Shown: positions 60,280 through 64,000 of the stretch, piece after piece
Position numbering within the stretch: the stretch's first letter is position 1
Layout: each line of letters begins with the position of its first letter
Assembly (NCBI RefSeq): GCF_947489715.1
Contig: NZ_CANLER010000001.1
Location: 868,001 to 932,000 of the forward strand
Direction of reading: 5' to 3'
Length of the DNA stretch: 64,000 nucleotides
From: an uncultured Roseovarius sp.
GTDB taxonomy: Bacteria; Pseudomonadota; Alphaproteobacteria; Rhodobacterales; Rhodobacteraceae
The notes under the pieces: model-generated
What the model was told of the DNA's origin: nothing
What the model saw: the letters and a program-made list of their open reading frames with translations, nothing else
Databases searched by the model: none
Made by a program: the position numbers and the translations under genes

Positions 60280-60603
60280 ATGAACCTGCCACCAAAAGTC
60301 ACGGATCGTGCCTTTTCCCGCCTGGCCGATATTGGTGCTGGCGATCAGGGTCAGGCCCTGCGTGTTGCAGTCGAAGGCGGAGGATGCTCGGGCTTTCAGT
60401 ATGAAATTAAACTCGATGCACCGGCCAAGGACGATCTGATCTTGGAAGGTCAAGGACAAAAAGTTGTGGTTGATTCGATCTCACTGCCTTTTTTGGCAGG
60501 CGCGACGATTGATTTCACGGAAGAGTTGATCGGTGCGCGGTTTATCATCGACAATCCCAATGCCAGCAGCTCCTGTGGCTGCGGAACCTCTTTTTCCATG
60601 TAA
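60280..60603 (+). CDS. A-type iron-sulfur carrier (ErpA/IscA family)
   Basis: The 107-aa protein has the HesB/IscA fold with the three conserved cysteines: C36 in VEGGGCSGFQY, and C99 and C101 in SSCGCGTSF. A-type carriers pass iron-sulfur clusters to apo-enzymes. The ATG at 60280 starts MNLPPKVTDRAF. Whether it is closer to ErpA or IscA is not settled by eye. Confidence 0.9.
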   Translation: MNLPPKVTDRAFSRLADIGAGDQGQALRVAVEGGGCSGFQYEIKLDAPAKDDLILEGQGQKVVVDSISLPFLAGATIDFTEELIGARFIIDNPNASSSCGCGTSFSM

Positions 60604-60631: not shown

Positions 60632-61552
60632 TTATTCTGCCGGGATGATACCGGGTTTTTTCGCTGCCACAATGTTCGGCTTGGGCGCAGCCTGATCGTA
60701 AATCAGCCAAGCACCTGCCGCGATGATAATTGCAGCACCAACGAACACCATCGCGCCGGGCATCTCTCCGAAGATGAGGATTCCAATCGCAACCATCCAT
60801 AAAAATTGAAGGTTCATCAGCGGTGTGACCACGAAGGCGGGCAACATTTTCAGTGCCGCGACCAACACCCACCGCGCGCCGAAGAGAAAGACCGCGTAGG
60901 CCAGTGCCCAGCCCAGATCAATAAGTGCCATCGGTTTGTACACAAAGGGCAATGCGGCACCCATCACCAGCATCAAGGCAAGATTTGGGTAGAAAACCTG
61001 TGCCAGTAGGTTGTCGTCTCGTTTCCCAATGTAGCGTGATGCCACCATCGACACGGTCCCCAGAATCACGGCGGCCAGAGCGATCAGATGTCCTCCTCCA
61101 ATCGACTCTAGGCCCGCCGGAAACAAACACATTACGCCAACGGACCCAAGTGCAAGTGCGGTCCAAATTTGCGGACGCACCGCCTCTCCCAATATTGGCC
61201 CCGACATCAGCGCTGCCAACAACGGTATCAGCGCGATGAACAGAAATACCTCTGCGAAGGGCAACAACCGGAAGGCATAGAAAAAGGCGATGGTGCCTCC
61301 GATGGTCGCCAGCACCCGAATTGTCATGGCAATGGGGCAACTTGTGCGCATATTACGCGGCCTTGCGCCTTTCCGGTTCACCAGGAAACTCAAGAGCGCA
61401 ACGATCCCACCGGACAACGCAAAAAGCTGCGGGGCGGCATAGTTTGCGGCGAACAGCTTGGTAATGCCATCCGCACTTGAAATCAGCAGGGTATAAAGTG
61501 CCGTCAGCCCGACACCCGCGGTAACCGGGCCGGTGACACTTCGTGCGATCAT
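60632..61552 (-). CDS. EamA/DMT-family transporter
   Basis: The 306-aa protein has ten predicted transmembrane segments in two EamA repeats (ALSGGIVALLSFLVNRKGARP early, and TPLMNLQFLWMVAIGILIFGE in the second). Members export amino acids, nucleosides and small metabolites. Its start overlaps the preceding DUF6902-like stop by four bases. It therefore belongs to the same operon as the FTSSM-repeat protein and could be its exporter, which is inference. Its substrate is not known. Confidence 0.85.
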   Translation of the reverse strand: MIARSVTGPVTAGVGLTALYTLLISSADGITKLFAANYAAPQLFALSGGIVALLSFLVNRKGARPRNMRTSCPIAMTIRVLATIGGTIAFFYAFRLLPFAEVFLFIALIPLLAALMSGPILGEAVRPQIWTALALGSVGVMCLFPAGLESIGGGHLIALAAVILGTVSMVASRYIGKRDDNLLAQVFYPNLALMLVMGAALPFVYKPMALIDLGWALAYAVFLFGARWVLVAALKMLPAFVVTPLMNLQFLWMVAIGILIFGEMPGAMVFVGAAIIIAAGAWLIYDQAAPKPNIVAAKKPGIIPAE

Positions 61553-62625
61553 GCGCTTACGCCCCGCAGGCCGACACGGGCAAACCCGGCAAAAAATTCG
61601 TCGAACCGGTCATTTGCCGCTTCTGCGGCGGTCAGTACAGTGTGCGCTTCTTCCGAAAGCCGGGTGGAGACGGCGCGCCGCATCTTTTGCCAGTCACCGC
61701 TTCTTTCATCGCCCATCTCATAGACACATTCCGAAAGCTCATGCAGTGGTAAGCTTGACGGTCGGGGTTGGTGAAACGTCACCCTTCCTGTCGGCACATT
61801 CGTGCCAAATCCTCCATACCCGACGACGGCCATGAACCAATTGACCATCAGATACTGGTGATAGTCATCTTGCAAAGGTTCATTCTCTTCATCGCTCAAT
61901 ACGAAATTCTTAGCCTGTGAGATAAGCCAGTTCTCCCAAATTATCGAAGGATTTTGGCCCGCAAACCTCAGTGCGATGCAAATTTCGGAAAGCAGGTCGA
62001 CATTCAAATCAAGAAACGCAAGCGTCCCTGCGAAATTCAGGCTTTCGACGATCTTATCGTCAATCTGCGGGTCTTTCCGGCCATATTCAGAAAGATAGAA
62101 AACGATATGCGTCAGTTCATACGCCGCTTTTTTGTTGGGCATTGAAAAGGTTTGCGACCTGCGGGCAAAACGGCGCAAACGATCATCCAACCCTATATCT
62201 GCGCGCAACGGGTCGATCCCGCGCCGAAGGCAAAGTCGACGTGCCTCTGCTCTTTGCAAATCAGATATTTCGGCGCCGGCCAATTGCTGTTCGGCAACCC
62301 AATCTACAAGTTTGGAACCTTTTCCGCCCGGCACACCCAGATCTTCGATGTCCAGGCAGATCGAAAGTAAGAACCTGTAATATTGCGGGAAAAACTCCAT
62401 CCGCTTTTCGATATCTTCATAAAAATGCCCATGTATAGCCAGAGCGCTGGCGTCAGGCCTGGCCCCGGTACATTCTAAAACATTAAGGGCTTCGGCATTT
62501 TCCTTCAGCCAAAAGACATCATCCCCAAAGCGGCGGTGTTTGGCGAAAAGGGCCAGCAGGGCCGCCTGGCGGGCAGCCGTGCTGTTTTGCCGGAACGGAG
62601 TGTTCAGCCTGATAACATTGGTCAT
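61549..62625 (-). CDS. Uncharacterised protein, DUF6902-like
   Basis: The 358-aa soluble protein is largely helical, with FFPQYYRFLLSICLDIEDLG, AYELTHIVFYLSEYGRKDP and LVDWVAEQQLAGAEISD among the recognisable parts. I recall a roseobacter family now called DUF6902 with such a protein, but cannot verify it. No signal peptide, membrane segment or known catalytic motif. AAGGATATC upstream of the ATG is a good ribosome site. It lies 53 bases downstream of the FTSSM-repeat gene and overlaps the transporter gene by four bases, so it probably acts on or with the repeat protein. Confidence 0.75.
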   Translation of the reverse strand: MTNVIRLNTPFRQNSTAARQAALLALFAKHRRFGDDVFWLKENAEALNVLECTGARPDASALAIHGHFYEDIEKRMEFFPQYYRFLLSICLDIEDLGVPGGKGSKLVDWVAEQQLAGAEISDLQRAEARRLCLRRGIDPLRADIGLDDRLRRFARRSQTFSMPNKKAAYELTHIVFYLSEYGRKDPQIDDKIVESLNFAGTLAFLDLNVDLLSEICIALRFAGQNPSIIWENWLISQAKNFVLSDEENEPLQDDYHQYLMVNWFMAVVGYGGFGTNVPTGRVTFHQPRPSSLPLHELSECVYEMGDERSGDWQKMRRAVSTRLSEEAHTVLTAAEAANDRFDEFFAGFARVGLRGVSA

Positions 62626-62678
62626 ATCACTGATATCCTTGTCAAAATTTCAGGCCAAAGCCCCGTTCCGCTTATGGC

Positions 62679-63164
62679 TTACATGCTCGAGGTGAAAATC
62701 TCGCAGCCATCTCCTTCGGTTGTGTCACTCTTCAACGTTGGCGCCATCGACGAAGTAAAGCTTCCCACCGCATCGCCGGAGGCTGTAGCACTCGCGGAAA
62801 CGGGGGTCATGGAAGACGTGAACATCTCGACCGCGTCGCCTTTCGTTGCATCCGTCAACGCTACCGTTGCCATTGACGATGTGAACATTTCAACCGCCTC
62901 ACCAACGCTGGCTTCGGTGCTTGTTGTCGGGCTCATGGACGAGGTAAACATTTCGACGGCGTCGCCCAATCCGGCTTCGGCCGTGGTCGCAGGACCCATC
63001 GAGGACGTGAACATTTCGATCGCATCACCCTGCCCAACCGAGGCGGTAGTGGCTGGCCCCATCGAAGAGGTGAAAGCCTCTACCGCCTCACCGCCATGCA
63101 GGCTGGTGTTGGGTAGGATTTTGGTAACTTTTGCAACAGATACTTCTTTGCGTAGTGCAGACAT
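62679..63164 (-). CDS. FTSSM-repeat protein, candidate multi-core peptide precursor
   Basis: The 161-aa protein consists of about 25 leader residues (ending SLHGG) and seven C-terminal-like units, each ending FTSSM. After the first at residue 35 the units recur at exactly 21 residues. Six of seven have G[DE][AG] near the start of the conserved part, and four read AVEMFTSSM or AIEMFTSSM. The protein ends exactly at the seventh FTSSM. All seven use different codons for TSS, so the pattern is held by selection on protein sequence. No catalytic domain or membrane helix. GGGAG precedes the ATG. Confidence 0.85.
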   Translation of the reverse strand: MSALRKEVSVAKVTKILPNTSLHGGEAVEAFTSSMGPATTASVGQGDAIEMFTSSMGPATTAEAGLGDAVEMFTSSMSPTTSTEASVGEAVEMFTSSMATVALTDATKGDAVEMFTSSMTPVSASATASGDAVGSFTSSMAPTLKSDTTEGDGCEIFTSSM

Positions 63165-63508
63165 CTTTAGTCTCCCAGGTTGTGTGATTGCAGCCTAAAA
63201 ACGCTTGCACTTAAAACGTGTTTTGCCAAGCCACTTTGCTCGTTAACCGGGTGTTTGAGATGCCAAAAACAACTTGCACAAATAGGCAAGTTTCTGAAAT
63301 CAATGCAAGATTCGTAGTAAAAAAAATTTCACAAAGCAGGCCTGTCAATACTTTGATTCATCCCGCAACTACGAGTTATCCACAGGGAGGCACAGCGAAT
63401 CATCACTTCAGGCCGGGCCGCTTCCTGCGCTCGCGAATTGCTTCCCGACCCCTTGTCAGACCGCGCGGCCTGAGCGATAGATAAGATGGCCAATTAGGGG
63501 ATCGAGTG
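63165..63508. other. Divergent intergenic region of the FTSSM operon and xth
   Basis: These 344 AT-rich bases must contain promoters for both directions. Seen are a small inverted repeat CTTGC (63273-63277) with GCAAG (63286-63290), which is a possible operator, and no gene. The AT richness exceeds that of the nearby coding DNA. Confidence 0.5.
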
Positions 63509-64000
63509 ATGAAAATTGCCAGCTTCAACATCAATGGAATCAAGGCACGGATTCAGGCCCTGCCCGATTGGTTGGATGAGGCGGAACCGGATGTCGTTCT
63601 CCTGCAAGAGATCAAATCAATCGACGAAAATTTTCCCCGCGAGTTGTTCGAAGACAAAGGTTATATCGTGGAGACCCACGGCCAGAAAAGCTTCAATGGC
63701 GTGGCAATCCTGTCGAAACTTCCGCTCGAGGATGTCACGCGCGGGTTGCCTGGCGATGACGAAGACGAGCAGGCGAGATGGATCGAGGCAACGGTGATGG
63801 GCGAAAAGACCGCCGTACGTGTTTGTGGCCTCTACCTGCCCAATGGCAACCCGGCGCCAGGCCCAAAATACGATTACAAATTGGCTTGGATGGAGCGTTT
63901 GCGTGATCGCGCCGCCGATCTGATGGCGGGCGAAGAACCCGCTTTGATGGCAGGGGATTACAATATCATCCCGCAAGACGAAGACGCCAAGCGTCCAGAA
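63509..64000 (+). CDS. xth: Exodeoxyribonuclease III, N-terminal fragment
   Basis: The gene runs off the right edge; about 164 residues are visible. MKIASFNINGIKARI and VVLLQEIKSID carry the first metal Asn and Glu of the endonuclease/exonuclease/phosphatase fold. SFNGVAILSK and MAGDYNI, with the later Asp-Asn pair, match Xth/ExoA-type AP endonucleases of base-excision repair. The ATG at 63509 follows GGGGATCGAG. Confidence 0.93.
   Translation, partial: MKIASFNINGIKARIQALPDWLDEAEPDVVLLQEIKSIDENFPRELFEDKGYIVETHGQKSFNGVAILSKLPLEDVTRGLPGDDEDEQARWIEATVMGEKTAVRVCGLYLPNGNPAPGPKYDYKLAWMERLRDRAADLMAGEEPALMAGDYNIIPQDEDAKRPE

Follow-up and report, generated by a model that had tools for sequence, protein, structure and literature searches.

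The 161-amino-acid repeat protein encoded on the minus strand (62679..63164) of the window examined here, a stretch of 64,000 nucleotides from an uncultured Roseovarius sp. (NCBI RefSeq assembly GCF_947489715.1, contig NZ_CANLER010000001.1, positions 868,001 to 932,000), is likely to be the precursor of a short ribosomal peptide, which would be modified by the neighboring DUF6902 protein before its release. Its designation as a predicted multi-core precursor was drawn from the open reading frame (ORF), residue positions, codons and relatives. On the same strand, as determined from ORFs and Pfam matches, the repeat gene is followed by the gene of the DUF6902 protein (61549..62625; 358 amino acids), a predicted peptide-modifying enzyme, and then by that of an EamA/DMT-type transporter (60632..61552; 306 amino acids; PF00892, E = 3.4e-12), a predicted exporter. 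Residue positions and codons placed the pentamer FTSSM at seven sites, all on the minus strand and with a spacing of exactly 21 residues: residues 31-35 (63060..63074), 52-56 (62997..63011), 73-77 (62934..62948), 94-98 (62871..62885), 115-119 (62808..62822), 136-140 (62745..62759) and 157-161 (62682..62696), the last forming the C-terminus of the protein. The TSS of the seven cores is coded in seven ways, all different (ACCTCTTCG, ACGTCCTCG, ACCTCGTCC, ACATCGTCA, ACGTCTTCC, ACTTCGTCG and ACCTCGAGC). These features had been described in the original prediction and were borne out, as were a leader ending in GG (the residues ahead of the first unit being ...SLHGG) and an overlap of four bases between the EamA and DUF6902 genes (61549-61552).

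The system was found to be Rhodobacteraceae-wide, consisting of the repeat protein and DUF6902, usually with EamA, located between xthA and erpA, and the pairing of precursor and DUF6902 is firm. Among 60 relatives, 16 matched the repeat protein and the same 16 possessed DUF6902, with two further DUF6902 matches, one at a contig end and the other a weak relative. In a family sample of 295 Rhodobacteraceae genomes, DUF6902 was present in 82 and a precursor match in 70, all of them among the 82, and the precursor search, performed with a single query, gave no match in the 213 genomes without DUF6902. A larger set of 177 DUF6902 loci was composed of 97 from one genome set and the best 80 of 374 from another, the two sets overlapping. 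A repeat precursor was detected by script upstream of DUF6902 in 170 of these loci (143 distinct), which argues that the layout is not due to chance. Three more precursors were recognized by eye, in L096, where the units are split by an assembly gap, and in L135 and L139, which carry short arrays. Among the other loci without a script-detected precursor, L164 lies at a contig end, and L129, L146 and L147 showed no precursor upstream of the DUF6902-type gene either by script or by eye; L129 and L146 have also lost key DUF6902 residues, and L147 is a DUF6895-like relative under the DUF6902 cut-off. The proposal of a three-gene peptide-precursor system was strengthened for the first two genes, as the repeat gene was never encountered without DUF6902 (16 of 16 relatives and 70 of 70 family genomes), whereas EamA proved to be inconstant.

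The window DUF6902 protein matched PF21843 with an E-value of 7.1e-162 (538.7 bits against a curated cut-off of 27) and, at a far lower level, PF21836, the DUF6895 family (E = 1.4e-18; 67.7 bits against a cut-off of 23.8). Residues H173, D210, E214, D253 and H256 were all retained in 172 of the 177 loci, and an alignment of ten DUF6902 and DUF6895 members left five polar residues (H, D, E, D and H) invariant; its DUF6902-type rows shared 17-19% identity with L258, the first DUF6895 protein. One DUF6895 member is named as a lasso-peptide epimerase in the title of a publication (Shi et al., ACS Catal 2026, 16:1757, cited in PMC13352647). A small or repeat ORF was located upstream in all six DUF6895 regions read from a Pseudomonadota sample, and a small ORF preceded DUF6895 on five plasmids of Actinomycetota and Bacillota, directly in four. 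Small ORFs directly before DUF6895 were seen in L266, L267, L268 and L270 (plasmids of Kitasatospora, Pseudalkalibacillus and Streptomyces) and in L258-L260 and L263. These ORFs carry a short aromatic motif and similar leader patterns and, on inspection by eye, resemble undescribed precursors of peptides. DUF6902 belongs to the same superfamily as DUF6895 and is like it in its PF21836 match, its H/D/E/D/H residues and its adjacent small peptide gene, and unlike it in constituting a Pfam family of its own and in having a multi-unit repeat protein as partner. DUF6902 is thus a putative modifying enzyme. Lasso peptide precursors are accompanied by B and C proteins; no genes for these were noticed by eye among the ORFs of the DUF6895 regions or in the plasmid annotations, nor were such proteins found beside the window precursor, whose neighbors are DUF6902, EamA, ErpA-like and XthA-like proteins.

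An alpha/alpha-toroid fold is likely for DUF6902 from its structural model, the best structural neighbors of which were class II terpene cyclases and the beta subunit of the prenyltransferase GGTase3. LanC is also an alpha/alpha-toroid enzyme, and a chemistry common to DUF6902 and the toroid enzymes among its neighbors is not implied. It is possible, at a lower probability, that DUF6902 modifies the repeats by a reaction other than epimerization, such as cyclization, dehydration or the addition of a group inside the toroid cavity, given the varied chemistry of the nearest toroids and the near invariance of the five polar residues; nevertheless, those same residues are common to DUF6902 and DUF6895, and the sole characterized relative known here carries the name of an epimerase in the title cited in PMC13352647. 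No solved structure was related by sequence to DUF6902 or to the combined profile, and the only solved match of one DUF6895 protein was an amino acid racemase with an E-value of 0.26, which is chance level. The viral fold library gave nothing at E < 0.001, and a single-sequence structure model was discarded as unusable (predicted local distance difference test score of 35.6). The name of an iron-containing redox enzyme, with which the UniRef entry of one relative starts, was rejected, having no Pfam or NCBIfam support for the window protein. A phage or defence origin was likewise rejected: neither PHROGs nor PADLOC gave a match at E 0.1, and scanning viral contigs with only the window protein as query, an approach limited to close relatives, yielded nothing.

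Core uniformity was evaluated in 141 precursors comprising 962 units, after duplicates and two misplaced anchors had been dropped. Each precursor contained between 2 and 20 units, for the most part at a spacing of 20 or 21 residues, and 110 of the proteins ended exactly at the core. Forty distinct core pentamers were found, such as FTSSM, FTSSL, FTSGS, FSSGS, FTSGL, FTSWS, FTNWC, FSTSC, MMCCS and YIAGL, so that, of the two points put up for checking in the original prediction, the repeat number does vary, and FTSSM is not fixed, the core varying between genomes. Core positions 2-5 were identical across all units in 133 of the 141 precursors, and all five positions in 109. The identity at positions 2-5 was 0.985-0.997 within proteins compared with 0.31-0.76 between proteins (0.43, 0.36 and 0.31 for positions 2, 4 and 5, respectively), while the flanking positions besides the anchoring G showed values of 0.29-0.78 and 0.14-0.63, respectively; the identity of the unit G, which serves as the alignment anchor, is 1.0 by construction. 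Shared between proteins were the F (0.84) and the x-P that follows the core (0.63), with just 0.35-0.42 for frame positions -5 to -1. Positions 2-5 were shared in 1252 of 1281 unit pairs with diverged flanks, and identical codons were counted in 2972 of 6040 core comparisons, against 2940 expected from codons re-dealt within each precursor. The core codons are as mixed as re-dealt ones; therefore, selection acts on the amino acids, and core identity is held by strong selection at the protein level, in agreement with what had been proposed from the codons of the window alone. A 21-residue product became less likely, since core positions 2-5 alone are near-fixed within proteins and the rest of the unit varies; a product of 4-5 residues, set in a frame of 20-21 residues, is more likely. 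Eight of the 141 precursors were not uniform at positions 2-5. Two core types within one protein were observed in L201, L110 and L241 (FTSGS with FTTSA; FSTSC framed by FSSGS), which perhaps give two products.

Between lineages, the copies of an array were found to change together. The core needs at least 57 changes on a quick DUF6902 tree of 139 rows, in which 43 of the 136 inner branches were well supported. Joint change was tested in 66 precursor pairs with different cores and a DUF6902 identity of at least 0.72, their units being matched by flanks, and in 98 of 98 cases the core difference of the matched units was the expected one, although members recur among the pairs, some pairs lack any matched unit, and the cases do not represent independent events. 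The DUF6902 proteins of L192 and L073 share 96% identity, yet the core differs in all six and in all seven units; FSSGS stands opposite FTSGS in four matched units, and the changed codon of the last unit is a single-base difference. The simplest reading of this joint change is that every copy must spell one product, and the uniform, jointly changing cores fit a multi-copy precursor of that product.

An uncleaved repeat protein could also serve as a multivalent scaffold, with identical sites that are bound by one DUF6902 pocket and change as the pocket changes. One binder with many identical sites would likewise yield uniform cores and joint changes, the operon is without a protease, most precursors end exactly at a core and, between proteins, the frame positions are no better conserved than the core. 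A binding site would nevertheless be expected to be conserved between species, in disagreement with the low between-protein identity of core positions 2, 4 and 5; the L192 and L073 arrays differ throughout under nearly the same DUF6902; and the DUF6895 relatives follow small ORFs with a single core or two cores, for which multivalency is beside the point. The scaffold bound by the DUF6902-like protein, which had been offered as an option in the original prediction, is less likely than the precursor reading. The idea that the cores are uniform only through tandem duplication and gene conversion, without any product, is largely refuted and very improbable, for although recent near-identical units occur in some arrays (L170, L073 and L069), core codons are mixed, flanks diverge around fixed cores, and matched units retain their own flanks from strain to strain while the cores differ.

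Further arrays illustrate how these proteins vary. The two Marivita records L238 and L244 have DUF6902 proteins that are 80% identical and arrays that are entirely different, with no matched units (IMSAS in all seven units of L238; FTSGL in eight and YTSGL in two of the ten units of L244), a contrast that looks like array replacement. In Roseovarius litorisediminis (L168, 6001-7062), a natural loss case, DUF6902 is interrupted by an internal stop codon and carries Asn at the position of H256, and a single unit among the five in the precursor has decayed to FTFSM. The diverged DUF6902-type proteins of L261 and L262, from the family of the window, are associated with STSSF arrays, where F ends the core rather than preceding it.

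For the peptide-precursor reading, a mechanism can be proposed in which the frame G[DE]xxx[MLA]-F of each unit would be the recognition site, with the product specified by the four residues that come after F (TSSM in the window). Homology and association suggest that DUF6902 would act on every core, most likely by epimerizing one residue. A housekeeping protease encoded elsewhere would release the cores, the x-P usually found after them being a possible cleavage site, and EamA, where present, would export the small product; a transporter of the small-molecule type is better suited to a product of a few residues than to one of 21. The product would most likely be a lineage-specific signal. Several results weigh against this reading. 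The peptide product is a predicted one, and the operon contains no protease gene. The GG leader end was not conserved, GG preceding the first unit in only 9 of the 141 precursors, AG in 7 and DG in 80, and a double-glycine leader with C39-type release was rejected on that count. EamA is not a constant partner: it followed DUF6902 in 151 of the 177 loci, was not found in 24 and was undecided in 2 (123, 18 and 2, respectively, among the 143 distinct loci); a dGTPase-like gene was next in 16 of the 22 EamA-less loci inspected by eye through the two longest ORFs of each. Finally, the DUF6902 model gave no significant Foldseek match, and its three toroid rows showed 10-13% identity over 225-237 residues, a match that is suggestive only. 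Precursor function is thus supported by co-occurrence, selection and DUF6895 kinship, and not by a GG leader, a constant EamA or a 21-residue product. The earlier idea was right in outline, the system being broader and stranger than stated, and RiPP-like (ribosomally synthesized and post-translationally modified peptide) rather than a proven RiPP.

The precursor of the yeast alpha-factor similarly carries, in one protein, multiple identical copies of a short peptide particular to the species, together with spacers; it differs in its eukaryotic secretory processing and in having no such modifying enzyme, and no homology is claimed. For the microviridin precursor AMdnA, the part of PMC5934393 concerned describes three cores in one precursor, processed by one ligase. 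As far as that account goes, several cores per precursor and one adjacent modifying-enzyme gene are common to both, whereas the present operon has no ATP-grasp ligase, has up to 20 units and has cores that are replaced together between species. A search of the literature on DUF6902, DUF6895, RiPPs of Rhodobacteraceae or roseobacters and multiple core peptides, with subscription journals mostly outside its scope, found no description of the system. The present results provide a functional hypothesis for DUF6902, a Pfam family of unknown function present in over a quarter of the family genomes sampled, and the link to DUF6895 makes its chemistry testable using a short substrate and a single purified protein. 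For substrate scope, the 40 cores represent a ready natural library, and the joint change of copies offers a clear example of selection for product identity within an array. Should the product act as a signal, a widespread bacterial family would have one that is particular to each lineage.

The operon occupies one chromosomal site, with XthA upstream in 165 and ErpA downstream in 157 of the 177 loci. Both boundary genes lie outside the system; in the window, these are the gene of an A-type Fe-S carrier (ErpA-like; 60280..60603, plus strand; PF01521), which marks the conserved site, and the divergent exonuclease III-like gene (XthA; 63509..64000, plus strand; PF03372), which runs off the window. 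The site was compared in 30 relative loci, 2 of which were unreadable, and in 12 of the 13 readable relatives without the operon an ErpA motif was found 276-374 bases from xthA, which represents the site in its empty state. The DUF6902 stop codon lies within ATGA in 93 and within GTGA in 43 of the 177 loci, a pattern typical of a coupled start.

Upstream of the precursor gene, the window contains the perfect DnaA-box sequence TTATCCACA (63376..63384, plus strand). This sequence is the perfect DnaA box of E. coli and, in the portion of PMC6699656 concerned, was used in an origin search in Rhodobacteraceae. It was present within 300 bases in 84 of 137 precursor upstream regions, around positions -110 and -186 relative to the start of the precursor and often in two copies, with 116 copies oriented one way and 16 the other; 54 of the 137 regions were without it at these places. 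In the same comparison of relatives, a perfect box was found upstream in 13 of 15 operon-bearing loci and in 0 of 13 without the operon (Fisher p = 2.8e-6, the relatives not being independent). The genome of the window has 28 copies of TTATCCACA, much the same number as for the reversed control pattern (26). The position of the boxes upstream of the precursor suggests that the operon may be controlled by DnaA, which is a good guess. Tentatively, and with rather low confidence, the system may represent an undescribed class of peptide signals, with a four-letter core repeated 2 to 20 times, a toroid epimerase and a DnaA-tied promoter, in which a short peptide containing a D-residue would act as the 'name tag' of a lineage, produced in step with replication and rewritten in all copies at divergence. 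In the genome of the window, a TTATCCACA pair 78 bases apart was observed approximately 100 and 180 bases before dnaB (L301, 2471-2557, equivalent to G000 contig 1, 434470-434556). A second enriched upstream element was noted around GTGCAAGCGT, with 8-mers in up to 40 of the 137 regions.
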